This document shows positions 18,615 through 34,523 of a DNA stretch of 46,748 nucleotides, in pieces (positions within the stretch are counted from its first letter, which is position 1; the number at the start of each line of letters is the position of its first letter). Source of the DNA: an uncultured delta proteobacterium (GTDB lineage Bacteria > Myxococcota_A > Polyangia > Polyangiales > JADJMO01); the NCBI GenBank assembly GCA_903923175.1, contig CAIXWQ010001212.1:1-46748 (forward strand), written 5' to 3'. The position numbers and the translations under genes are program-made. Below the pieces are notes generated by a model. That model was not told where the DNA came from. It did no database searches and worked only from the letters and a program-made list of their open reading frames with translations.

Positions 18615-21002
18615 TCAGGTCGTCGGTGGCGTCGGCGCGCGCTCGGCGAGCACGAAGCCGAGCACGTGCCGGGTGCCGAGCTGCCGGAGCGCGCGCCGCA
18701 CGTCACCCTTCGAGGAGACGCCGCTGCCGACCACGATCACCATCCCCTCGACGGCGGTCTCGAGCGCGTTGGCGTCGCCCGTGCCGAGGATCTTCGGACC
18801 GTCGACGACGACGTAGTCGTAGAGCTCGCGGAAGACCGACAGCGCCTCCTGGAACTGACCCGAGTGGATCACGCGCGGGATGGCCTCGCCCCGCGGCGAC
18901 TCGGCGAGGACGTGCAGCGACGGCCCGATCGCGACGACGTGCCAGCGCCAGTCCTCGCCCTCGATCTTGCGCACCAGCTGCGCGGAGATTCCGAACGGCG
19001 GCGGCACGTCGAGGCCGAACAGCTCGGCGAGCGCCGGGTGGTGCAGGTTGCCCTCGACGAGCAGCACGCGCGCGCGCTGCGACTCGGACAGCGCCATCGC
19101 GAGCAGCGCGGCCACGGTGCTCTTGCCGTCGCGGTCGTTCGGGCTCGTGATCGCGAACGTCACCACGCCTTGCGAGTGGAGCAGCTCGAGCTTGTGTCGG
19201 ATGACGCGCAGCGAGGCGCTCGCGGCGACGTCGTCCCGCAGGAACGCGAGCACCTCGGCGCGCTTCGGCGCGGCGACCATGCGCACGACCTTGATCGGCC
19301 ACTGGTCGAAGGGGGCCGACGTCTCCTCCACGAAGTTCGCGAGCGCGCCCGGCGAGGGGGCGACGAGCGCCTGGCTCGGCACGGGGGCGGCCGCCTGCGC
19401 GACGGTCGGGATGACCCCCAGCACGGGCGCGACGCCGAGCGCCTCGACGTCCTCCTGATCGAAGATCCGGCCGTCGAGCGCGATGCGCGCGAGGATCCAG
19501 CACAGCGCCGCCGCGAGCGAGCTGAAGCCGCCGGCGAGCGCGATCATGAGGCGCTTGGCCTTCGAGGGGCGAAGCGGCCGGAACGCGGGCTCCACGATCG
19601 AGACGATGTCGCCCTTGCCGACCTCGGCGCCGTTCGCCGCGAGCTGCGCCGACTCGTAGCGCTGCTTCAAGCCGTCGCGCTGGCTCTTCGCGTCGGCGAG
19701 CGTGCGCAGCATCCGCTGCCACTCGGTCTCGAGCGAGCCACGCCCGAGGTCTCCCGCGTCTGGCCCACCGGCGTCGTCCGTCGCGCCGGCTGCGGGAGGC
19801 GGCTCGTGCTTGGCGATGCTCGCCATCAGGACGTTCTCGCGCGCCATGATCTGCGCGATCACCTCCTTCAGCTTCACCTGCTCCTCGGACTCGGCCTTCG
19901 GCGTCGGGTCGGTGCCCGTCGCCTTCGCGTCGATCGCCGCGAGCTGCGCGCGCGCGTCGCGAAGGTCCTGCGCGGCCGCCGCCGCCGTCGCGCGCGCGGC
20001 CTTCATGTCCGGGTGCTCGTCGGTGAGCTTGAGCTGCTTCGCCTGCAGATCCGCCGAGGCCTCGGCGTAGCGCTTCTTCGCGTCCTCCACGCGCGCCGCC
20101 GCCGCCTCGCGCGACACGCCGGGCGTCGGCGCGGCCGCCGGAGCGTCGGGCGTGGCCGAGGCCTTCAGGTCGGCCTCCAGGCGCGCGCGCTGCCGCCAGA
20201 GCGCCGCGAGCACGGGATCGCTGTTGCGCAGCGCCGTCATCGCGGGGTCGTCGGACTTCACGGTCGCGGCCGGACCGCCGGGCGCGCCGGGCTTCTTGGC
20301 CCCCATCGCGCCCATCCCGACGCCGCCGCCCAGAGGGATCTCCACCGAGAACTCGGGGTGCGCGCCGAGGAACAACGTGACCTTGCCGATCGCGTCGTCG
20401 ATGTTCTTGTTCGCGGTGGTGACCTCCTTCTCGAGGAAGGCCGCCTGGTTGCGCAGCTCGCGCACGCCGCCGCCCACGAAGTCGTCGGCGAGCGTATCGG
20501 AGAGGTACTGCGTGACGTCGCGGACCAGCGCGCGGGTGTCGACGCCGTCGACCTCGTCGCTGTCGAACGAGACGACGTAGCGGCCGCTCTCGCGCGCGCG
20601 GACGCCGACGTGCATGCGCATCGCGTCGACCGCCTCGATCACGTCGCGCGACTCGACGATCTGCGCGTAGAGGCCGAATTTCTTGATCGCCGCCTCGAGC
20701 CGCGCGCGCTCGACGAGCATGTCCTTGATGCGCGCGGTCCGGTGCAGCGTCGACTCCCCCTCGCCGCCGTCGGCGCGCGGGATGTTGCGGATCGCGATCG
20801 TGCACTCGGAGGCGAAGTTGCGCTTGGCCTTGGAGGCGAAATACGCCGAGAGCGCGAGCCCGATCGCGAGCACGAGCGTCGCGCCGAGGAGGAAGCGCCG
20901 CCCGCGCTTGGCGAGCGTCACGAGGCGCGCGAGGCGCTCGCCCGGCGTCTGCTCGGGCGGCGCGGGGGAGGGGGGCGATCCCGGGGGGCGAGGCACGCTC
21001 AC
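18615..21002 (-). CDS. Wzc-like polysaccharide co-polymerase with BY-kinase-like domain
   Basis: A 795-residue chain-length regulator and kinase-like protein. A membrane segment (about 37-56) is followed by a large periplasmic region with coiled-coil stretches (about 300-440) and a second membrane segment (about 484-508) after the RPLRPSKAKR linker typical of the family. The C-terminal domain is BY-kinase-like: Walker A SPNDRDGKST (about 620-629) and Walker B YDYVVVDGPK (about 730-737) are kept. The Walker A' segment reads VLLVEGNLHH where the family has VLLIDADLRR, and no tyrosine cluster is seen at the C-terminus, so kinase activity may be altered. The GTG at 21002 has GGAG upstream; a TTG at 21113 is also open. 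Wza is encoded nearby at 25274. Confidence 0.9.
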   Translation of the reverse strand: MSVPRPPGSPPSPAPPEQTPGERLARLVTLAKRGRRFLLGATLVLAIGLALSAYFASKAKRNFASECTIAIRNIPRADGGEGESTLHRTARIKDMLVERARLEAAIKKFGLYAQIVESRDVIEAVDAMRMHVGVRARESGRYVVSFDSDEVDGVDTRALVRDVTQYLSDTLADDFVGGGVRELRNQAAFLEKEVTTANKNIDDAIGKVTLFLGAHPEFSVEIPLGGGVGMGAMGAKKPGAPGGPAATVKSDDPAMTALRNSDPVLAALWRQRARLEADLKASATPDAPAAAPTPGVSREAAAARVEDAKKRYAEASADLQAKQLKLTDEHPDMKAARATAAAAAQDLRDARAQLAAIDAKATGTDPTPKAESEEQVKLKEVIAQIMARENVLMASIAKHEPPPAAGATDDAGGPDAGDLGRGSLETEWQRMLRTLADAKSQRDGLKQRYESAQLAANGAEVGKGDIVSIVEPAFRPLRPSKAKRLMIALAGGFSSLAAALCWILARIALDGRIFDQEDVEALGVAPVLGVIPTVAQAAAPVPSQALVAPSPGALANFVEETSAPFDQWPIKVVRMVAAPKRAEVLAFLRDDVAASASLRVIRHKLELLHSQGVVTFAITSPNDRDGKSTVAALLAMALSESQRARVLLVEGNLHHPALAELFGLDVPPPFGISAQLVRKIEGEDWRWHVVAIGPSLHVLAESPRGEAIPRVIHSGQFQEALSVFRELYDYVVVDGPKILGTGDANALETAVEGMVIVVGSGVSSKGDVRRALRQLGTRHVLGFVLAERAPTPPTT

Positions 21003-21159
21003 GAACTCAGGCTCCGCGCTGGCGCCGGGCACGGCGCGACGTCGCTTCGACGCGCTCCGGGGTGGCGACCGAGGACGCCCCGATACCCTAACGAGCGGTG
21101 GCGGGTTGCGCAATTCGCCGACGGCGGGCGCGCGCGTTCTGCGATCCGGAGCACGTTCA

Positions 21160-22530
21160 TCAACCTTTCGAGTGGCTGACCACCACCACGGCGAGCAGCA
21201 GGACCACGCCCGCGACGGCGATCCCGACGAGATCGCGTCGCTCGGTCTTCACCTCGAAGTCCGGGTGGTCCACCCGCACCGTCGCGTACAGCGCGCCGGC
21301 CAGCCCGAGGTAGATGAAGAGCAGCTGCTTGTACGTGAACGACAGGAAGAAGATCCCTACCAGGATCCCCGCGAACGACAGCGCCAAGGCGTACGCGAAG
21401 CGGAGCAGGGCCGGATCGAGCCCCGCCGGGGGCCGGCGCACGATCGCGACGGGGATCTTGATCGACGTCCAGACCAGCCCCAACCAGGCGAAATAGCCTG
21501 GGATACCCAGCTCCGTCACCGCCAGTAGGTAGGCGTTGTGCGCCGTGTGCGGGATGTCGATCGAGTCCTGGAACTGGTTGACCCCGACGCCGACGATGGG
21601 CTGGCGCTTCAGCAGCATCAGCCCCTCGCGCAGGATCTCGGCGCGCTCCTCCGAGGAGGACTCCGCGTCGGCGCCGTCGCGCCACGAGAGGGCGATGAGC
21701 GGCGCGGCGAGGGCGCAGGCCATGACCACGCCGCGGAGGCCGAAGCGGCGCACGAAATGGACGAGCGCGATCGTCAGCAGCACCAGCTGACCGCCGCGCG
21801 ACTGCCCGAGCACGACGGCGTACAGGGCCACGGCGAGGAGCGGGAGCAGCGCGAACACGCGCACGCGCCAGTCGCGAGAGCGCTCGGTGACGAAGTACAG
21901 CGGCAGCACCGCGCCGACGAACACCGCGAGCTCGTTCGGGTCGGCGAGCTGCCCCTTCCAGCGCACCCGCCCGCCCGTCGAGAGCGTGCCGAACTTGCCG
22001 GCGCGCTCGCAGAGGTAGTCGACGCCCGGCTTGCCCCCTTCGTTCTCGCAGAACCGCACCCCCTCGCACTCGCGCCCGTCGGGCACGTAGTCCTCGTCCT
22101 CGCCGTTCACCTCGATCGCGACGCACTGCTTCGGCTGCAGCCCCTGGTGCACGGCCACCGCGCTGATGAGCGTCATGCAGACGCCGATCGTCACGGTGAA
22201 GCGCTTGAGCCGCTCGAGCCCCTGGAGCCCGTAGGCGACGACGAGGAAGAAGATCGCGGGGAGCGTCGTCGCGAGCCACACCGTGCTCGCGCCGGTGCGC
22301 CCGAGCCGCGCGAGCGTGACGCCGTAGCAGATGACCACGAACGCGCCGAGCCACGGGAGCTGCGGGGCGAAGCCGAGCTTCTTGCGGTCGACGAACGCGC
22401 CCCACCCGATGCCGATCGCGGCGAGCGTCGTCAGCGCCTCTAGCAGATGCAGCGGGGCGAGGCCGGGGAAGACCTCCATCGGCCGGAGCAGCAGCACGAC
22501 GACGATCGCGAGCGCAGCGAGGCTCGCCAC
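21160..22530 (-). CDS. O-antigen ligase/Wzy-polymerase family protein
   Basis: A 456-residue polytopic inner membrane protein with about 12 hydrophobic segments. The signature of the Wzy/WaaL family is seen: RWKGQLADPNELA (190-202), GQSRGGQL and PHTAHNAYLLAVTELG with the conserved His-Asn-Ala-Tyr. Such enzymes join polysaccharide repeat units or transfer a chain to its acceptor in the periplasm. Beside a Wzc-like and a Wza-like protein, a Wzy role for an exopolysaccharide fits better than a WaaL role. A loop at about 133-180 is acidic and has four cysteines (136, 155, 161, 174). The GTG start is at 22530 and stands 158 bases upstream of the co-polymerase gene. Confidence 0.88.
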   Translation of the reverse strand: MASLAALAIVVVLLLRPMEVFPGLAPLHLLEALTTLAAIGIGWGAFVDRKKLGFAPQLPWLGAFVVICYGVTLARLGRTGASTVWLATTLPAIFFLVVAYGLQGLERLKRFTVTIGVCMTLISAVAVHQGLQPKQCVAIEVNGEDEDYVPDGRECEGVRFCENEGGKPGVDYLCERAGKFGTLSTGGRVRWKGQLADPNELAVFVGAVLPLYFVTERSRDWRVRVFALLPLLAVALYAVVLGQSRGGQLVLLTIALVHFVRRFGLRGVVMACALAAPLIALSWRDGADAESSSEERAEILREGLMLLKRQPIVGVGVNQFQDSIDIPHTAHNAYLLAVTELGIPGYFAWLGLVWTSIKIPVAIVRRPPAGLDPALLRFAYALALSFAGILVGIFFLSFTYKQLLFIYLGLAGALYATVRVDHPDFEVKTERRDLVGIAVAGVVLLLAVVVVSHSKG

Positions 22531-25273: not shown

Positions 25274-25855
25274 ATGCGCCGGCTCTCCGCCCTCGCCCTC
25301 CTCCTGCTGCTGCCGACCACCCTCGCGTGCTCGGCGACGGCGACGTACGCGTGGAAAGACGAGCACGCGATCGAGTACCGCGTCGGCCCGGGCGATCGGC
25401 TCCGGATCAGCGTCTGGAAGCACGACGAGGTGAGCCAAGAAGTCACCGTCCGGCCCGACGGCAACTTCTCGCTCCCCTTGCTCGGCGACGTCCACGCCGC
25501 GGGGCGCTCCTCGGTCGACATCGGCAAGGAGGTCGAGGCGCGCCTCACGCGGCTCTACACCGAGGCGCCGCCGGTCACGGTCCTCGTGGTCGAGGTGAAG
25601 AGCTACCGACTCTACGTGCTCGGCGAGGTCCAGAAGCCCGGCGAGCTCGCGCCGGGCCAACCGATCACGGTGCTGATGGCGCTCGCGATGGCGGGCGGCT
25701 TCACCCCCTTCGCGGACGCCGATCACGTCGTGATCGTCCGCCGCGACGAGAAGGGCGAGCGCAGGATCCCCTTCAGCTGGTCGGCCGTCGTGCGCGGCGG
25801 CGACCTGCAGCAGAACCTCATGCTGCAAGCGGGCGACACTCTCGTCGTCCCCTGA
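25274..25855 (+). CDS. Polysaccharide export protein, Wza-like (poly_export/SLBB)
   Basis: A 193-residue outer membrane lipoprotein. A signal peptide ends in the lipobox TLAC (Cys19). Residues about 36-115 form the polysaccharide biosynthesis/export domain (EYRVGPGDRLRISVWKHDE, then VTVRPDGNFSLPLLGDVHAAG), and about 116-185 form one SLBB domain (YRLYVLGEVQKPGEL, LAMAGGFTPFADADHVVIVRR). It is shorter than E. coli Wza, with one SLBB, as is common for export proteins of this type. It should carry polysaccharide across the outer membrane with the Wzc-like protein at 18615. It is divergent from the EEP gene and followed on the + strand by the HATPase/STAS pair. Confidence 0.92.
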   Translation: MRRLSALALLLLLPTTLACSATATYAWKDEHAIEYRVGPGDRLRISVWKHDEVSQEVTVRPDGNFSLPLLGDVHAAGRSSVDIGKEVEARLTRLYTEAPPVTVLVVEVKSYRLYVLGEVQKPGELAPGQPITVLMALAMAGGFTPFADADHVVIVRRDEKGERRIPFSWSAVVRGGDLQQNLMLQAGDTLVVP

Positions 25856-25984: not shown

Positions 25985-26377
25985 GTGATCGTACTCCGCG
26001 TACCGGCCACGCTGCAGTACCGCGACGTCGCGACCCGCGTCGTGTCGGCGGCCTGCAAGCTCGTCGAAGCCACGTCGGCCGAGTTCGGCCAGCAGGTCGT
26101 CTCCGCCTTCGGCGAGGCCTTCAACAACGCGGTCCTCCACGCCTATCGCGGGCTCGCTCCCGGCGAGCTCGTCGTCGAGGTCGCGCCGCTCGCGGATCGC
26201 ATCGCCATCCGGCTGGTCGATCAAGGGCGGACGTTCGATCCGGCGACCATCGTCGATCCCGATCTCGACGCGCTCCCCGAGTCGGGAATGGGATGGTTCA
26301 TCATCCGATCGTTCATGGACGAAGTGCGCTATGAGCCCGGCCCCCCGAACGTGCTGTCGCTCGCGAAGCGGCTTTGA
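25985..26377 (+). CDS. RsbW/SpoIIAB-like anti-sigma serine kinase (HATPase)
   Basis: A 130-residue HATPase_c protein of the RsbW/SpoIIAB kind. The N box is FGEAFNNAVLHAY (Glu44, Asn47/48), the G1 box is VDQGRTFDP (Asp79, Gly81) and the glycine-rich lid is ESGMGWFIIRSFMDEV, all as in serine kinases that phosphorylate a STAS antagonist. The next gene is such a STAS protein, so they form a partner-switching pair; a GAF-SpoIIE phosphatase that could reverse the phosphorylation is at 28776. No sigma factor is seen nearby, so the target could be another protein, perhaps part of polysaccharide synthesis. The GTG start gives a family-length N-terminus. Confidence 0.9.
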   Translation: MIVLRVPATLQYRDVATRVVSAACKLVEATSAEFGQQVVSAFGEAFNNAVLHAYRGLAPGELVVEVAPLADRIAIRLVDQGRTFDPATIVDPDLDALPESGMGWFIIRSFMDEVRYEPGPPNVLSLAKRL

Positions 26378-26440
26378 CTCGGCCGCAACGTTCGCCTACA
26401 CCCACGCCAGCGTGGCTCACGCGCCCACACGGAACGCTCG

Positions 26441-26746
26441 ATGAACTTCTCCCTCCAACGTGACGGCGATGCGCTGGTGCTCCGCATCGAAGGGGAGCTC
26501 GACGCGCTATCGGCGCCCCAGATTCGCCCCGTGATCGAAGAGGTCCTGGCGGGCGCGCCCAAGCGCGTCACGGTCGATCTCTCCGCCCTTCGGCTCGTCG
26601 ACAGCTCCGGCGTCGGCGCGATCGTCTCGCTCTTCAAGCGTCAGCGTGCCGCCGGCGGCGAGTTCGGCATCACGGGGCTCGCCGGGCAGCCGCTCGCCGT
26701 GTTCCGGGTGCTCCGGCTCGATCGCGCGCTGAGCACTTCGGCATGA
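26441..26746 (+). CDS. STAS-domain anti-sigma factor antagonist
   Basis: A 101-residue single STAS domain. Strands and helices follow RsbV/SpoIIAA: an N-terminal sheet with LVLRIEGELDALSAPQIRPV, then the phospho-acceptor region RVTVDLSALRLVDSSGVGAI with the DSSG motif (54-57). It should be phosphorylated by the HATPase 63 bases upstream and dephosphorylated by an SpoIIE-type phosphatase. Its stop overlaps the start of the next gene (ATGA), so the next gene's product was probably made in step with it; that gene now carries a stop codon. GGAACGC lies before the ATG. Confidence 0.93.
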   Translation: MNFSLQRDGDALVLRIEGELDALSAPQIRPVIEEVLAGAPKRVTVDLSALRLVDSSGVGAIVSLFKRQRAAGGEFGITGLAGQPLAVFRVLRLDRALSTSA

Positions 26747-27882
26747 AGTTGCCGCGGGCGCTCGAGCGTTTGAGGGAGAAGAACCTCGAACGGTGGGTCC
26801 CGGCGTGGCTGCTCGATCGCTCGAGGCGTCGCGCCCAGCGCTCGCGCGCGTCGAGCGGGCCGCGGCACCTGATCTTCTCCTTCTGCGACCACTACGAGCC
26901 GCTCTGGGGAGGCGCGTCGCTCGAGACCGGGCGCGAGCGCGTGCGGGTCTGGCGCTAGGGCTACCCGCGGCTCGCGGCTCGCTTTCGCGACGCCGACGGT
27001 CGTCCGCCGCAGCACTCGTTCTTCTTCCCCGGCGAGCAGTACGACCAGGTGACGCTCTCGATGCTCGCCGAGCTCGCGCGCGCCGGATTCGGCGAGGTCG
27101 AGCTCCACCTCCACCACGACGGTGACACCGCGGCGAAGCTGCGCGCCGACGTGCTCGACTACCTCGCCAAGCTGGCCTCCCACGGTCACCTCTCGCGCGA
27201 TCCCGACGGCCGGCTCCGCTACGCCTTCATCCACGGCAACTGGTGCCTCTCGAACGCGCGGCGCGACGGTCGCTGGTGCGGCGTCGACGAGGAGCTCCCG
27301 CTGCTCTTCGACACCGGCTGCTACGCCGACTTCACCTTCCCCGCCGCGCCCGACGAGGCGCAGCCCGCCGTCGTCAACCAGATCTACTGGCCGACCGGCG
27401 ATCTCGCGCGCCGACGCGCGTACGAGCAGGCGGAGCGAGCCCGGGTCGGCCTGCGCCGCGACGACCGCATGCTCATCGTCACCGGCCCGATCGCGCTCTC
27501 CCGCCGGCCAGGCTCGCTACAGCCCCGCATCGAGAGCGCCGCGATCACCGCGAAGGATCCCGGCACCGCCGCGCGCGTGCGTACCTGGGTCGAGCAGGGC
27601 ATCTCGGTCGAGGGGCGGCCGGAGTGGGTCTTCGTGAAGGTGCACACGCACGGCGCCCCTGAGCGAGAGGCCGCGTCGCTGCTCGGCGACGGCGGCCGCG
27701 CGATGCACGAGGTCCTCACCACGCGCTACAACGACGGCCGCGACTGGGTGCTGCACTACGCCACCGCGCGCGAGACGTTCAACGTCGCGATCGCCGCGAT
27801 GGAAGGGCACTCCGGCGATCCCTCGCGCTTCCGCGATCACGTGCTGGCCCCGCCGCCGGTGCGCGTGGCCCCGCCGGGCTGA
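26743..27882 (+). pseudogene. Polysaccharide deacetylase-like protein gene broken by one in-frame TAG
   Basis: One reading frame of 380 codons, from an ATG overlapping the STAS stop (ATGA) to the TGA at 27880-27882, is interrupted only by TAG at 26956-26958. The 71 residues before it (ending RERVRVWR) and the residues after it (GYPRLAARFRDADG) are coherent coding sequence in the same frame, so a single base change, for example GAG to TAG, or an error in the sequence is likely. The product looks like a (beta/alpha)-barrel protein of the polysaccharide deacetylase kind: FSFCDHYEP, HSFFFPGEQYD, ELHLHHDGD, HGNWCLSN and DTGCYADFTFP. A downstream piece could restart at GTG 27049, but it would lack the FCDHYEP strand. 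The family is not named with certainty. Confidence 0.85.
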
Positions 27883-27894
27883 GCCGCTCCGCCC

Positions 27895-28635
27895 TCAGCG
27901 CCCGAGGCCGAACAGCATCGTGCGCGGCGTCGAGAGGATGATCTCGATCTCGGTCGCGAGGTACGGGCCCACCCGCTCGAGCGAGGCGGTGTAGGCGAGA
28001 TCGAACAGCAGCTTGATCCGCATGTCGTCGGCGAGCGCGCCCTCGACCCCCTCGAGATCGAACGGGTTGACGAGATCGTCGCCGAACGCGGCCACCGGGC
28101 TGCCAGGCGGCGGGCGCCCAGTGTAGCCGAGCGAGATCTGCGCGAGCCCGGTGAGCCCCGGCTTCACCCCGCGCATCCGCTCCTCGAAGAACGGGATCGC
28201 CTCGGCGAGCACCTCGATCAGCTCCGGTCGCTCGGGGCGCGGACCGACGAGCGACATCGTGCCGACCAGTACGTTGAGCAGCTGCGGCAGCTCGTCGAGC
28301 CGCGTCCTGCGAAGGAAGCGGCCGATGCGCGTGATGCGCGGATCGTTCTCCTCCGCCACGACCGCGCCCGTGCCCTTCTCGGCATCCACGCGCATCGTGC
28401 GGAACTTGAACATCGTGAACTCTTCGTAGTCGAGCCGTCGCCCGCCCGAGCGTCGACCGAGCAGCCGCCCCGCGCGCCGCTGCGAGTAGAAGACGGGGCC
28501 CGGCGAATCGACCACGATCGCCAGCGCCAGCGCCGGAAAGAGCGGAAGCGTGACCGCGAGCCCGACGGAGGCGGCGGCGAGATCGATCGCGCGTTTCAGG
28601 ATGCGCACGGAGGGAGCTGCCACGTTCGTCCGCAC
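27895..28635 (-). CDS. Priming sugar-1-phosphate transferase (bacterial sugar transferase family)
   Basis: A 246-residue monotopic phosphoglycosyl transferase that should place the first sugar phosphate on undecaprenyl phosphate. A hydrophobic N-terminal helix (14-42) is followed by [13 protein letters not shown] (44-56), FKFRTM (76-81), [20 protein letters not shown] with catalytic Asp114-Glu115, and [15 protein letters not shown]. It lacks the extra N-terminal membrane helices of WbaP-type enzymes, so it is the short PglC-like type. A region of about 20 residues between SQRRAG and FKFR is Arg/Gly-rich. The GTG start is at 28635. It is convergent with the broken gene, 12 bases apart. Confidence 0.92.
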
Positions 28636-28775
28636 GACCCTAGCCGCGGTCGTCGGCGCCGTCGACCTCGATGCGCCGTGCTCGCCGCGCGCCGATCGAA
28701 CGCGCGCGACAGCGCTCGTTCGCGCTGGTCACCCGCGACGAAGTTCGATAAACCGCACGTCAGGGGGGGGCCGAA

Positions 28776-29981
28776 ATGCATCCGGTATTGCGCATGCAGC
28801 GGCTCTCGCGCCTGTCGCAGGCGCTCAGCGAGCTCGACTCCGAAGGCGAGCTCGAGCGCTACGTCGTCGCCGCGCTGTTCGAGGTCTTCGCGCCCGTCGC
28901 ACGCATCAACCTCTTCCTCTCGTTCGGCGACCACCAGCTCGGTGCCGCGGGCGCGGTCTACACGATGTCCCAGGTGCTCGCGCGCCTGCGCACGCCACGC
29001 GGCGAGGACGACGCCGCCGCCGCCGCCGTCCTGCGCGCGCCCCACCTGTTCGCCCGCGATCCCCGCGACACGCGCGGCTCGCTGATGTCGATGCCGATCG
29101 TGATGCGCGGCGAGTTCGTCGGCCTGATCGTCGTCGAGCGCGCGCCGTCGGGGCCGCCGCTCACGTTCAGCGATCTCGAGGCGCTCTCCGGCGTCGGCGG
29201 CCAGGTCGGCTTCGCGTTGCTCAACCTCCGGCGCCACCTGTCGACGCGTCGTCTCCGCATCGCCGAGGATCTCCGGCAGGCGCGCGAGGTCCAGCATCGC
29301 CTGCTCCCCACGCTCCCCCCGCAGGTCGGTCCTCTTCGCGTCGCGGCCGCGTACCGGCCTGCGTTCGAGGTCGGCGGGGACTTCTACGATCTCGTCTCGG
29401 GCGAGTCGGGCGCGACCCACGTCGTCATCGGCGACGTCGCCGGCTCGGGCGTCGCGGCGGCGCTGATCATGGCGCGGATCTCCTCCGATTTCCGCCGGCT
29501 CGCGCGCGCCGACACGAGCCCCGGGGCGATCCTCCTGGAGCTCGACAAGTCGATCAGCGAGAGCAAGCTCGAGCACGCGTTCGTCACGGCGACCTGCCTG
29601 CGCTTCGACCGCACCGGGCGCGAGCTGCACGTCGCGAGCGCCGGGCACCTGCCGCTGATGCTCCGGCGCGGCGAGCGCGAGATCGAGCTGCACGGGCGCA
29701 ACTCGGGCGTGCCGCTCGGCGTGCTCCAGGGCCAGCACTGGGTCGAGGAGCGGCTCGACCTCAACGTCGGCGACATCATCCTGCTCACGACGGACGGCGC
29801 CCTCGAGGCGATCGATCCGGAGGCCGGCGTGAAAGGGCTGCTGCGCCTCGCGAAGCTGCTGCGCGAGGCGCCGCGCGACGTCGAGGCCGTGGCCGCGCAC
29901 GTCCTCGAGGCGGTGGTCCGCGCCGAGGGGCGCTCCGACGACGTCGCCGTGCTCTCGCTGCAGGTCGCCGACTGCCCGTGA
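28776..29981 (+). CDS. GAF-SpoIIE (PP2C-type) serine phosphatase
   Basis: A 401-residue protein. Residues about 10-150 form a GAF-like sensory domain, joined by a helical linker with LRQAREVQHRLLP to an SpoIIE/PP2C-type phosphatase domain (about 185-400). Metal-binding motifs are EVGGDFYD (198-205), IGDVAGSGVAAAL (Asp220), TTDGALEA and the terminal RSDDVAVLSL, all intact. Such enzymes remove phosphate from STAS antagonists and so release a target from its HATPase kinase. A likely substrate is the STAS protein at 26441, 2 kb away in the same locus. The G-rich stretch before the ATG at 28776 can act as a ribosome binding site. Confidence 0.92.
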   Translation: MHPVLRMQRLSRLSQALSELDSEGELERYVVAALFEVFAPVARINLFLSFGDHQLGAAGAVYTMSQVLARLRTPRGEDDAAAAAVLRAPHLFARDPRDTRGSLMSMPIVMRGEFVGLIVVERAPSGPPLTFSDLEALSGVGGQVGFALLNLRRHLSTRRLRIAEDLRQAREVQHRLLPTLPPQVGPLRVAAAYRPAFEVGGDFYDLVSGESGATHVVIGDVAGSGVAAALIMARISSDFRRLARADTSPGAILLELDKSISESKLEHAFVTATCLRFDRTGRELHVASAGHLPLMLRRGEREIELHGRNSGVPLGVLQGQHWVEERLDLNVGDIILLTTDGALEAIDPEAGVKGLLRLAKLLREAPRDVEAVAAHVLEAVVRAEGRSDDVAVLSLQVADCP

Positions 29982-30069: not shown

Positions 30070-31431
30070 GTGAAGCCCTACGCCGAGCTGATGGGACGCG
30101 TCCTGTTCCCGCTGTGGGAGGGGACCCTGCGTCGTCGCCCCACCGTGTCGCTGCTGCGTCGGTTGCAGCAGACCGAGCGCCTGCCGCTCGAAGAGCTGGA
30201 GGCCCTTCAGGTGGGCGCGCTGAGGGCGCTGCTGCGTCACTCGTTCGACCACGTCCCGTTCTACCGCGCGCGCATGCTCGCAGCGGGCCTCGGCCCCGAC
30301 GACGTCCGCAGCCTCGACGACCTCCGTCGCCTGCCGATCCTCGAGCGGAGCGAGGCGCGCGAGGCCGGTGAGTCGCGCGCGGCCACCGCGCCGCCGCTCC
30401 CCGCGATCCGCAAGAGCACCAGCGGCTCGAGCGGCCAGCCCCTCGCGTTCGCGTACGACCTCGGCTCCGAGCACTGGCGTCAGGCGACCAAGCTGCGCGG
30501 CTACGGCTGGGCGGGCTACCGCGTGGGCGTCCGCTCGCTGCACTACTGGGGCGGCGCGGCCGTGCGGCCGACGCGCTTCGGGCGCGTGAAGATCGCCCTC
30601 GACCGCACGCTCAAGCGCGAGACGTACGTCGACTGCGGCGTCCGCGGCGACGCCGAGCTGGCCGGGCTCGCCGACGCCATCCGTCGCTCGCCGCCCGACG
30701 TCATCGTCTGCTACGCGCAGGCCGGCGCCGATCTCGCCCGCTGGGTCAACGCGAACCGCGCCCGCGCCTGGCGCGACATCCCCGTGCTCAGCGCGGCGGA
30801 GCGCTTGTTCCCGGCGGACCGCGCCGCGCTCGTCGAGGCGTTCGGCCCCGGCGTGTTCGAGACGTACGGCTCGCGCGAGGTGATGCTGATGGCGGCCGAG
30901 TGCGAGGCGCACGACGGCATGCACGTCTCGATGGAGAACCTCGTCGTCGAGGTCGTCGTTCGCGACGGCGCGAAGTCGCGACCCGCGCGCCCAGGCGAGT
31001 CCGGCGAGGTCGTCGTCACCGATCTCCACAACTACGGGATGCCGTTCGTCCGCTACGCCACCGGCGACCTCGCGGTCCTCCGCTCGCTCGAGCGCTGCGC
31101 CTGCGGCCGCGCGCTGGCGCGCCTCGGCGCGGTCGACGGGCGCGTCACGGAGACGCTCCGCGACGGCGCAGGGGGCCGGATCTCCGGGCTGATCTTCAAC
31201 GTGCTGCTCGTCGCGCACGGGCACGTCGTGCGTGCCTTCCAGGTCGTCCAGCACCGCGACGACTCGCTCACCCTGCGCGTCGTCGGCGAGCGCTTCGACG
31301 CCGCCGCGGAGCAGGCGCTCCGCAGCTCGCTCGCCCCCTACTTGCGCGCTTTGCCGCTGACGATCGAGCGCGTCGCCGACATCCCGACGGAGCGCTCCGG
31401 CAAGCGGAAGGTCGTCATCGTCGAGCGGTGA
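30070..31431 (+). CDS. CapK-like adenylate-forming enzyme (phenylacetate-CoA ligase related)
   Basis: A 453-residue member of the AMP-forming superfamily, of the CapK/PaaK-like group often found in capsule and exopolysaccharide loci. The ATP-binding loop is KSTSGSSGQPLAF (115-127). Other motifs are VFETYGSREVMLMAAEC and MPFVRYATGDLAVL with the conserved aspartate, followed by the C-terminal lid (SGLIFNVLLVAHGHVVRAFQVVQ). The substrate is unknown; an acyl or amino-acid group added to the polymer or its lipid is plausible. The GTG start is at 30070, 88 bases after the phosphatase gene. Its last 17 bases overlap the 3' end of the GT4 gene on the other strand. Confidence 0.88.
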   Translation: MKPYAELMGRVLFPLWEGTLRRRPTVSLLRRLQQTERLPLEELEALQVGALRALLRHSFDHVPFYRARMLAAGLGPDDVRSLDDLRRLPILERSEAREAGESRAATAPPLPAIRKSTSGSSGQPLAFAYDLGSEHWRQATKLRGYGWAGYRVGVRSLHYWGGAAVRPTRFGRVKIALDRTLKRETYVDCGVRGDAELAGLADAIRRSPPDVIVCYAQAGADLARWVNANRARAWRDIPVLSAAERLFPADRAALVEAFGPGVFETYGSREVMLMAAECEAHDGMHVSMENLVVEVVVRDGAKSRPARPGESGEVVVTDLHNYGMPFVRYATGDLAVLRSLERCACGRALARLGAVDGRVTETLRDGAGGRISGLIFNVLLVAHGHVVRAFQVVQHRDDSLTLRVVGERFDAAAEQALRSSLAPYLRALPLTIERVADIPTERSGKRKVVIVER

Positions 31432-32587
31432 GGGCGGCGAGGGGCCCGCGCCGCGCGTCGTCGATGGAACGCCGATAGAGCGCGAGGTACGCGTCGACCA
31501 TCGTGCCGAGCGCGTAGTGCGCCGAGCGCGCGAGCGAAGCTCTCCCGCGCTCCCTCGCCGCCTCTGGATCGCGCGCGAGCGCCGCCATCGCCTCGCGAAG
31601 CGCGCGCTCGTCGCCCGCCGGCACGAGCGCGCCGACGCGTCCTCCCTCGAGCACTTCGCCGATGCCGCCCACGTCGGTCGCGACGACCGGCAGGCCCGCC
31701 GCCATCGCCTCGACGAGCCCGAGCGGCAGCCCCTCGGTGTCGGACGACATCACGAACGCGTCGAACGCCGACAGCGCGCGCGGCACGTCCCGCCGTGCCC
31801 CTGCGAGCACGAGCCACTCGGCCGCCGCGCCCGCCGCGGCCACCGCAGCGCGCAGCGCCGGCAGCTCGTCGCCATCGCCCACGATCACGAGCCGCGTCCC
31901 TGCCCCGAGCAGCGGCGTCGCCGCGCGCACCAGTCCCGGAAAGTTCTTCTCGAGGCGCACCCGCCCGACCGTCCCGAAGACCCACGCGTCCGCGGGGATC
32001 CCGAGCTCGGCGCGCACGGCCGCGCGCGCAGTCTCGTCGTGCGCGAACGCCTCGAGCTCGACGCCGTTCGGGATCGTGTGCAGGCGCGCGCTCGGGCACT
32101 CTCGGTTGCGTCTCGCGACCGCCGCCGTCGCCGAGGAGACCGCGACGTAGGCGTGCGCCAGGTGCCCGCCGACCCGTCGGAGCAGGAGTCGTCGCCCGCG
32201 GTCCGGGTTCGCCCCATGCTTGGTGTGCACCACCGCGGCCCGCGCCAGACGTCCCGCGAGGGCGCCGTAGGCGAGCGGCAGTGGGTTGTGCGTGTGGACG
32301 ACGTCGACCCCCGCGGCGCGCAGCCGATCGCGGAGCGCGAGGACGATGCGTGGATCGACGCCGGGCCCCTTCGCGACGCGCGACACGCCTACGCCCGCCG
32401 ACGCGAACGCCTCCGCGAGCGGCCCGTCGGGCGCGGGCGCGAGCGAGATGGCGAGCACGCGGTGTCCGCGAGCGACCTGCTCGCGCGCGAGGTCGAGCGC
32501 GACGCGCTCCTGCCCGCCCATCTCGAACGAGGAGAGCACGTGCGCGATGACGATCGCGCGCGTAGCCCCGGTCTGACCGCCCTTCAC
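31415..32587 (-). CDS. Glycosyltransferase family 4
   Basis: A 390-residue GT-B enzyme. The acceptor-domain loop is FEMGGQERVALDLAREQ, and the donor domain has VGRVRLEKNFPGLVRA, LVIVGDGDELPALR and the EX7E-type segment TEGLPLGLVEAMAAGLPVVAT. These match GT4 retaining glycosyltransferases that add nucleotide-sugar-derived residues to a lipid-linked repeat unit on the cytoplasmic side. No membrane segment is seen. The ATG at 32587 opens the MKGGQTGATRAIVIAHVLSS start. The donor and linkage cannot be read from sequence. It overlaps the CapK-like gene by 17 bases at its 3' end and is divergent from the next GT4 gene. Confidence 0.92.
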   Translation of the reverse strand: MKGGQTGATRAIVIAHVLSSFEMGGQERVALDLAREQVARGHRVLAISLAPAPDGPLAEAFASAGVGVSRVAKGPGVDPRIVLALRDRLRAAGVDVVHTHNPLPLAYGALAGRLARAAVVHTKHGANPDRGRRLLLRRVGGHLAHAYVAVSSATAAVARRNRECPSARLHTIPNGVELEAFAHDETARAAVRAELGIPADAWVFGTVGRVRLEKNFPGLVRAATPLLGAGTRLVIVGDGDELPALRAAVAAAGAAAEWLVLAGARRDVPRALSAFDAFVMSSDTEGLPLGLVEAMAAGLPVVATDVGGIGEVLEGGRVGALVPAGDERALREAMAALARDPEAARERGRASLARSAHYALGTMVDAYLALYRRSIDDARRGPLAALTARR

Positions 32588-32670: not shown

Positions 32671-33879
32671 ATGTCCCGCCGCCACGTGCGCGTCCTCGTC
32701 GTCACCAAGATCTTCCCGAACGCGCTCGAGCCGACGTCCTCCGCGTTCAACCGGCAGCAGCTCTCCGCGCTCTCCGCGCAGGCCGACGTCGAGGTGCTCG
32801 CGGCCATCCCGTGGTTCCCCTTCGCGCGGCTCGCGCGCAAGTGGTCACGCGCCGGCCGCCTCGGCGGTCTGCCCGCGACCGACGTGATCGACGGCGTCCC
32901 CGTCGCGTACGCGCGCGTCGCCTACCTCCCCGTCATCGGCGACTCGGTGGCGGTGTCGCTCTACGGCGCCTCGGTGCTCCCGGCCGTGCTGCGGCGCCGA
33001 GGTCGCTTCGACGTGATCCTCGGCGCGTGGACGTTTCCCGACGGCGTGGCGGCCATCGAGCTTGGACGCCTGCTCGGCGTGCCCGCGGTCGTGAAGGCGC
33101 ACGGCAGCGATCTGAACGTGGAGGCCGAGAAGCCGAAGGTGCAGGCGCGGCTGCGGCGCGCGTTGCCGCGAGCGGCCGGCTTCGTTGCGCCGAGCCGCGC
33201 GCTCGTCGCCCGCGCCGTCGCCCTGGGCGCCGACCCCGCCCGCGCCGTGCACGTGCCCAACGGCGTGGACGTCGCGCGTTTCCACCCGATGGATCGCGCA
33301 ACTGCGCGCGCGAGCCTGGGGCTTCCGCTCGACGTCCCGCTCGTCGTCTACGTCGGCCGCCTGGAGCGCCCCAAGGGATTGTTCGAGCTCGTCGAGGCCT
33401 TCGCGGCCGTGCGTCGCGCGCGACCCGACGCGAGGCTCGTGCTCGTCGGCGACGGCAGCGCGAGGTCGGCGCTGCAAGCCGCTGCGGCGCCCCTCGGCGA
33501 CGCGGTGATCGCGGTCGGGGACCGCACGCACGCGGAAGTGCCTCGGTACCTCGCTTCCGCGGACGTCTTCACCCTCCCGAGCTGGTTCGAGGGGACGCCG
33601 AACGTGGTCCTCGAAGCGCTGGCGTGCGGCCGTCGGGTGGTCGCCACGCGGGTGGGGGGGATCCCCGACGTCGTCGAAGACGAGCTGCTCGGCGAGCTCG
33701 TGCCGCCCAAGGAGCCCCGAGCGCTCGCCGCCGCCCTCGTTCGCGCCCTCGAGGCCCCCGTAGAGGCCTCCGCGATCGTGGAACGCGCGCGGATCGGCAG
33801 CTGGGCCGAGAGCGCCCGGCAGCTCCGGGCGGTGCTGGAGCGTGCCGTCGCCGGGCACCCGCGAGGCGCGTCGCGGTGA
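32671..33879 (+). CDS. Glycosyltransferase family 4
   Basis: A 402-residue GT-B enzyme of the GT4 family, divergent from the previous one (83 bases apart). Motifs are LRVLVVTKIFPN-like opening (VRVLVVTKIFPNALEPTSSA), VKAHGSDLN in the acceptor side, VYVGRLERPKGLFELVEAFA, LVLVGDGSAR and the catalytic segment SWFEGTPNVVLEALACGRRV. The length is normal and it has no membrane segment. It is the last gene of the exopolysaccharide locus before the ribosomal operon, and ends 296 bases upstream of rplV. The sugar and its position in the repeat unit are unknown. Confidence 0.92.
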   Translation: MSRRHVRVLVVTKIFPNALEPTSSAFNRQQLSALSAQADVEVLAAIPWFPFARLARKWSRAGRLGGLPATDVIDGVPVAYARVAYLPVIGDSVAVSLYGASVLPAVLRRRGRFDVILGAWTFPDGVAAIELGRLLGVPAVVKAHGSDLNVEAEKPKVQARLRRALPRAAGFVAPSRALVARAVALGADPARAVHVPNGVDVARFHPMDRATARASLGLPLDVPLVVYVGRLERPKGLFELVEAFAAVRRARPDARLVLVGDGSARSALQAAAAPLGDAVIAVGDRTHAEVPRYLASADVFTLPSWFEGTPNVVLEALACGRRVVATRVGGIPDVVEDELLGELVPPKEPRALAAALVRALEAPVEASAIVERARIGSWAESARQLRAVLERAVAGHPRGASR

Positions 33880-33975
33880 AGCGAACGTGGGCCCCCCGAG
33901 GCGCGGCACGTGCGCCATCGTCGATAGAAAATGACGGGAAATCTCAGTGGTCCGACCCTCCTCGACGAAGAGTGC

Positions 33976-34003
33976 TGGACATCGGCGCGCACACTGCTAG
34001 ATT
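33976..34003 (+). promoter_or_regulatory. Candidate sigma70-type promoter for the ribosomal operon
   Basis: TGGACA (33976-33981) and TAGATT (33998-34003) are separated by 16 bases, one mismatch and two mismatches from the TTGACA and TATAAT consensus. They lie 172 bases before the rplV start, the first gene of the ribosomal operon. The leader between them and rplV includes a perfect inverted repeat, TTTCCC-TC-GGGAAA, at 34030-34043. Assignment is by position and match only. Confidence 0.5.
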
Positions 34004-34175
34004 GCGCGCCCCTCTCGAAATCAGGCGAGTTTCCCTCGGGAAATGAGCTTGGACCGGGCGGCCCGCAACGCGAAGAGCGAGCGAGCTGTCTTGACTGGCG
34101 GTCCTAACGGCGCGCTCCCCCGGCAAAGCCAGGCGCGTACGAGGAAGCCACCCAACTGAAACGAAGGACGTCTCT

Positions 34176-34523
34176 ATGGCCAGCAAGGCGATGGCGAGAT
34201 TTGCGCGGATCTCTCCGCGTAAGGCGCGAATGATCGTCGATTTCGTGCGCGGGAAGTCGGCCGCCCAGGCACTGCAGCTCCTGCAGTTCACCAACAAGGC
34301 GGGCGCCCCCTGGGTCCGGAAGGTCATCGAGTCCGCCGTGGCGAACGCCCGGCAGAAGGACCCGACCGTCGACGTCGACGCCCTCTACGTCGCGACCGCC
34401 ACCGTCGACAAGGGGCCGAACAGTCACATGCGCCGTTGGCGCCCTCGCGCGATGGGTCGGGCCACGCGCGTCCAGAAGGGCGTCAGCCACATTACCGTCG
34501 TCCTCGAGAGCGCGAAGAAGTAA
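34176..34523 (+). CDS. rplV: 50S ribosomal protein L22
   Basis: L22 lines the exit tunnel and binds several 23S rRNA domains. The 115-residue protein has the typical MARFARISPRKARMIVDFVR start, and the C-terminal hairpin KGPNSHMRRWRPRAMGRATR that reaches into the tunnel. AAGGA lies upstream of the ATG. It is the first gene of the operon here; rpsS and the other early S10-operon genes are not upstream. Confidence 0.97.
   Translation: MASKAMARFARISPRKARMIVDFVRGKSAAQALQLLQFTNKAGAPWVRKVIESAVANARQKDPTVDVDALYVATATVDKGPNSHMRRWRPRAMGRATRVQKGVSHITVVLESAKK

Follow-up and report, generated by a model that had tools for sequence, protein, structure and literature searches.

In the Polyangia, a large group of soil bacteria within the Myxococcota, gene content indicates that a three-protein partner switch is inherited along with an initiating sugar transferase of a special kind. 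Unlike for the SypA system, a candidate client can be named for this switch. Three-protein phosphorylation switches of this kind usually control gene expression, and enzymes of the PglC/WbaP/WcaJ type initiate polymer synthesis, placing the first sugar phosphate on a lipid carrier. Switches with an output other than a sigma factor, such as SypA and BtrV, have been described, and to our knowledge their clients are unknown; here, comparative genomics puts forward one enzyme, and one short segment of it, as the candidate. We give an even chance to a partner switch that is dedicated to the polysaccharide and controls the enzyme with which its locus initiates synthesis, a reading in which we infer all interactions, their direction, and the effect on the enzyme. 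The window, by which we mean the whole analyzed stretch of 46,748 nucleotides, is contig C1212 of a 10.7-Mb genome that is 95.6% complete.

Switch proteins and the surrounding polysaccharide locus

The sequence-only reading had placed a HATPase kinase, a STAS antagonist, and a GAF-SpoIIE phosphatase within 4 kb of the window. Its coordinates are exact to the base, and Pfam matches and motifs agree with its assignments. The polysaccharide setting that it described is likewise borne out by Pfam and NCBIfam, which identify Wza, Wzy, Wzc-like, glycosyltransferase, and sugar-transferase genes around the switch. The locus is composed of the following features:

18615..21113, minus strand: Wzc-like chain-length/autokinase-like protein; weak AAA_31/ParA match, TIGR03007 and TIGR01007 below cut-off
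21160..22530, minus strand: Wzy/O-antigen ligase-like protein; PF04932, E=7.4e-13
25277..25855, plus strand: Wza-like export protein; PF02563, E=6.2e-23, with SLBB domains
25985..26377, plus strand: RsbW/SpoIIAB-like serine kinase (HATPase_c_2), 130 aa; Pfam PF13581, E=4.5e-21
26441..26746, plus strand: STAS-only antagonist, 101 aa; PF01740, E=8.5e-18, TIGR00377 over cut-off
26744..27882, plus strand: DEAC, a conserved polysaccharide-locus protein; no Pfam or NCBIfam match, start overlapping the STAS stop
27895..28635, minus strand: SUGT*, a PglC-like initiating sugar-phosphate transferase (Bac_transf), 246 aa; PF02397, E=6.5e-50
28024..28122, minus strand: insert of SUGT*, about 26 residues within residues 172-204; candidate docking segment
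28776..29981, plus strand: GAF-SpoIIE (PPM) phosphatase, 401 aa; PF07228, E=6.2e-42, and PF01590, E=8.5e-7
30070..31431, plus strand: PaaK-like adenylate-forming enzyme; NCBIfam PaaK-type models below cut-off, kept in the loci of several relatives
31415..32587, minus strand: glycosyltransferase GT1; homologs in relatives' loci
32671..33879, plus strand: glycosyltransferase GT2; homologs adjoin the phosphatase gene in relatives

The kinase contains intact N, G1, and G2 boxes (N-box E44..N48, D79xG81, and GMG), and residues E44, N48, D79, G81, and G103 are invariant among 20 aligned orthologs. The solved structures closest to it are those of RsbW (6m36) and SpoIIAB. The NCBIfam models of RsbW and SpoIIAB match the kinase below cut-off, with the equivalog cut-offs of both unreached. 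The closest solved structure to the STAS protein is SpoIIAA. Residues D54, S55, S56, G57, and V58 of the STAS protein are invariant in 20 orthologs, and D54-G57 form the DSSG motif, the first serine of which, S55 (codon 26603-26605), is the likely phosphorylation site according to the alignment to SpoIIAA. The phosphatase is formed by a weakly matching GAF domain (E=8.5e-7, residues 71-148) and a SpoIIE domain with intact metal-site motifs GGD, GDVxG, TDG..E, and DD; its ortholog in genome G028 is 50% identical. Judged by these motifs, the kinase, STAS, and phosphatase families form a complete module of the RsbW/SpoIIAB type. The phosphatase of the locus is by far the best of 14 SpoIIE matches in its own genome. 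Because the top match of the genome lies at this locus, and because the association recurs across the order, the presence of the switch set here is more than chance.

DEAC and SUGT*, the first overlooked in the sequence-only reading and the second not recognized there as a special initiating transferase, are encoded between the STAS and phosphatase genes. DEAC is interrupted by an in-frame TAG at 26957-26959, which is either the mark of a real pseudogene or an assembly error; the copies of relatives are intact, 366-407 aa long, and 61-76% identical to each other. The predicted structure of DEAC is poor (mean pLDDT 61) and has no significant match in the PDB; chitin deacetylase and enzymes of family GH57 match it weakly, no more than a hint that its fold resembles that of deacetylases. 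DEAC is present in 43 of the 144 genomes of the order, 20 of which lack the kinase. We rejected DEAC as a switch-specific client, since it is far commoner than the switch. Genes of the DEAC type are also found in gammaproteobacterial polysaccharide loci that have no switch, in Rhodanobacter, Dyella, Luteibacter, Alginatibacterium, and others (loci L189-L205).

The nearest named relatives, identified by a search with one gene of the locus, belong to Polyangiaceae, Labilithrix, Minicystis, and other Myxococcota, which makes Polyangiales the most likely order. Models specific to the XrtA/PEP-CTERM polysaccharide locus (TIGR03027, TIGR03007, and TIGR03097) all score below the curated cut-off. At 33879-34176, directly after the glycosyltransferase gene, ribosomal genes start at L22 and S3, and the genes that usually precede L22 are absent. 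L22 is near none of the relatives' loci examined, and its position reflects either a split operon or an assembly join.

Conservation of the switch and its co-inheritance with SUGT*

Kinase orthologs are present in 24 of the 144 genomes of the order, and STAS orthologs in 25. A wide score gap separates the kinase orthologs from other members of the family (1e-37 versus 1e-17). Among 28 genomes of the order and class, the kinase and STAS genes are adjacent in 25, and a SpoIIE phosphatase is encoded in the same locus in 25. About 60 related loci were mapped; the kinase gene lies beside that of the STAS protein and is surrounded by genes of a SpoIIE phosphatase, Wza, Wzc, Wzy, and glycosyltransferases. 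The retention of the kinase, STAS, and phosphatase set inside related exopolysaccharide loci supports the earlier proposal of a locus-specific regulatory system. The preservation of gene order in relatives, which had been set in advance as a test, holds for the association and not for the exact order, which varies: the switch is not beside the sugar transferase in 6 of the 28 genomes.

The phosphatase has the GAF-SpoIIE architecture in the window and in G028, and is an FHA-GAF-SpoIIE, FHA-SpoIIE, or bare SpoIIE protein elsewhere. We rejected it as the conserved core, since its domain architecture and sequence vary by lineage. To judge from these architectures, phosphatases are exchanged between lineages, and the evolution of the signal input seems to be independent of that of the kinase and STAS protein. 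A swapped phosphatase type is found in L043, L044, L047, L086, L127, L206, and other loci. Tandem duplications of the kinase and STAS genes occur in L150 (10253-11904) and L295; the second STAS protein of L150 has VDARGLG in place of IDSSGVG and lacks the phospho-serine.

SUGT* has the characteristics of a monotopic phosphoglycosyl transferase: an invariant DELPQ motif with the DE dyad, a GPRPER sequence with the PRPE motif, and a PglC-like fold. Its model matches the structures of PglC and WbaP (Foldseek, PglC E=3e-10). The insert, which was defined by aligning 29 insert-bearing with 16 ordinary transferases, follows the catalytic core and precedes the last helices, and is common to all transferases of these loci. 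Residues S179, N190-P191, and A202-D203 of the insert are near-invariant. Ordinary transferases of the phylum lack the insert, including those from similar loci without the switch. By this alignment, SUGT* is a distinct transferase subfamily set apart by its insert. The insert is predicted with a pLDDT of about 47-54 over residues 181-200, in a model based on a shallow alignment. A conserved sequence of low model confidence is what a flexible docking segment would be expected to show, and the insert is a candidate for such a segment.

The transferase is encoded in 25 of the 144 genomes of the order, comprising all 24 genomes with the kinase and one that is 64% complete. The weakest of the 25 matches scores 1e-109, and nothing else in the 144 genomes reaches 1e-60. 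The Fisher p value for the co-occurrence of SUGT* and the kinase in the order, which ignores relatedness, is 2e-26. In a sample of 282 genomes from the phylum, SUGT*, the kinase, and the STAS protein give identical 11-genome sets at the ortholog level. The 11 genomes include four families outside the order, which were found with SUGT* alone before the kinase and STAS searches. The kinase search of the phylum also gave two weak matches, at 4e-22 and 4e-21, the weakest of the 11 being at 4e-29. Of 20 further genomes, which were reached through named loci and form a third set, 14 have both partners, 3 have neither, and 3 are discordant. The genome sets partly overlap (for example, G398 is G206), and their counts are not additive.

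Patchiness within genera is more telling than the Fisher values. In genera g24 and g36, the complete gene set is present in some members and entirely missing from others; therefore, the genes were lost or gained together. In the large genome G383, SUGT*, a glycosyltransferase, the STAS protein, and DEAC are encoded in a row (L296, 9627-13583), and a genome-wide search gave no kinase ortholog. The gene content of this one genome hints at the STAS protein as the partner of SUGT*. Among the genes tested, only SUGT* tracks the switch; DEAC does not.

The distance between the kinase and SUGT* genes is at most 300 bp in 18 of the 28 genomes, 15 with divergent genes and 3 with genes in the same direction. 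The kinase, STAS, and SUGT* genes are also neighbors in a cultured member, Minicystis rosea DSM 24000. It is 1.5-6 kb in four genomes, including that of the window, in whose own family the two genes are non-adjacent, and in six of the 28 the genes are unlinked or far apart. SUGT* is on a contig separate from the switch in four genomes of family f6 and in G206. In the four f6 genomes, the kinase, STAS, and phosphatase genes are near histidine-biosynthesis genes, and SUGT* is beside a Wzc-like gene on the other contig. Because the co-inheritance persists without linkage, it argues for a functional tie.

Proposed mechanism and alternative targets

We propose that the kinase would add a phosphate to S55 of the STAS protein, and that the GAF-SpoIIE phosphatase, in response to a signal, would remove it. 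The STAS protein, or the kinase that it releases, would exchange partners according to the phosphorylation state, between a kinase:STAS complex and SUGT*. Depending on whether the insert is occupied, SUGT* would then load the lipid carrier with its first sugar phosphate or cease to do so. If so, cells could halt polymer synthesis at the first committed step and would need no new transcription for this, and the signal would enter through the exchangeable sensor domains of the phosphatase. The switch set is very probably dedicated to this polymer pathway. The near-perfect co-occurrence gives the earlier suggestion of a polysaccharide enzyme as the target a concrete candidate, SUGT*, while the phosphorylation, the binding, and the effect on activity are what we infer. 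From the genome distributions, we judge the case for SUGT* as the direct client of the switch to be evenly balanced. The most detailed form of the proposal is somewhat more tentative: the STAS protein or kinase may dock on the insert and toggle a membrane enzyme of glycan initiation across the Polyangia, with interchangeable sensor phosphatases.

The non-adjacency of the genes in the window's family, the lineage-variable phosphatase, and the kinase-less G383 speak against SUGT* as the client. Co-inheritance would also be expected if the switch controlled transcription of the SUGT* locus. A classical anti-sigma switch would act in this way, with the kinase holding an alternative sigma factor from outside the SigB/F/G group (RpoD-like, RpoH, FliA, or ECF) that the STAS protein releases to transcribe the locus. 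That the kinase is closest to RsbW/SpoIIAB and the STAS protein to SpoIIAA is in line with this alternative, as is the presence of RpoD-, RpoH-, and FliA-like sigma factors, the best sigma matches in the window's own genome. The search of that 95.6%-complete genome gave no SigB/F/G sigma factor over the curated cut-off, which led us to reject this group as the target, and the scan of locus proteins likewise gave no sigma factor, in keeping with the sequence-only reading, which had seen none. Furthermore, a sigma gene is not a recurrent neighbor in the gene maps, where neighbors are partly annotated, and a transcriptional switch leaves the match with one insert-bearing enzyme unexplained. We consider an anti-sigma switch improbable.

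The same co-inheritance would be expected if SUGT* marked a polymer type and the target lay among the remaining genes for that polymer. The switch would then act post-translationally on the Wzc-like copolymerase, Wzy, the export protein, or DEAC. Wzc-like genes are close to SUGT* in many loci, and DEAC directly follows the STAS gene in the window and its family. However, homologs of Wzc, Wzy, and Wza are also present in loci without the switch, DEAC occurs in 20 switch-free genomes of the order, and SUGT* alone among the tested genes tracks the switch, which makes another part of the machinery an unlikely target. It is very unlikely that the switch has no functional link to the locus and is a general signaling module that became a neighbor by inheritance. 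The Polyangia are rich in such proteins, with the 14 SpoIIE matches in the window's own genome and 71 STAS-type proteins in Sorangium cellulosum (PMC2887360), but the three genes behave as one presence/absence unit even across separate contigs.

Comparison with known systems

The RsbW-RsbV-RsbU and SpoIIAB-SpoIIAA-SpoIIE systems of Bacillus are built from the same three protein families, with the motifs intact. In contrast to them, the set described here is accompanied by no SigB/F/G sigma factor over the cut-off, and its genes share a polysaccharide locus with that of a sugar transferase. It differs from the RsbRST stressosome, which has an RsbR-type STAS protein with a sensory N-terminal domain, in that its 101-aa STAS protein has a STAS domain only and its kinase matches RsbW/SpoIIAB models; no RsbS or RsbT was found among the scanned locus proteins. 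The phosphatase matches SiaA of the SiaABCD system, in which a SiaC-type antagonist acts on a diguanylate cyclase, weakly and far below the cut-off. An expansion of SpoIIE and STAS proteins has been described in Sorangium, without a link to this module (PMC2887360). Searches of the open PMC papers brought up no STAS/kinase switch coupled to an initiating transferase, and no description of the set in Polyangia.

SUGT* shares the catalytic core and fold of PglC, WbaP, and WcaJ, from which it differs by the insert of about 26 residues and a C-terminal part outside the PglC/WbaP profile matches. A fusion of a STAS domain to a glycosyltransferase in Anabaena is cited in PMC8256260. The STAS-only protein MlaB of E. 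coli binds MlaF with its usual phospho-site in the interface, which shows that STAS proteins can bind enzymes directly (PMC7367683); MlaB-MlaF, however, belongs to an ABC transporter and has no known dedicated kinase or phosphatase. BtrU-BtrV-BtrW of Bordetella resembles the set described here as a full partner switch with an output other than simply a sigma factor, but controls type III secretion and no polysaccharide enzyme (PMC8256260).

The closest known system is SypE/SypA of Vibrio fischeri. In both cases, a STAS-only protein with a conserved phospho-serine is encoded in a polysaccharide locus and is accompanied by serine kinase and phosphatase domains. These are fused in one response regulator in SypE, whereas here each domain has a gene of its own, and the Pfam scan gave no receiver domain. 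SypA, which is active when unphosphorylated (PMC4517449), controls polymer formation from the syp locus through an unknown target, apparently without a sigma factor (PMC4517449; reviewed in PMC8256260), whereas the switch of the Polyangia has a candidate target enzyme in SUGT*.
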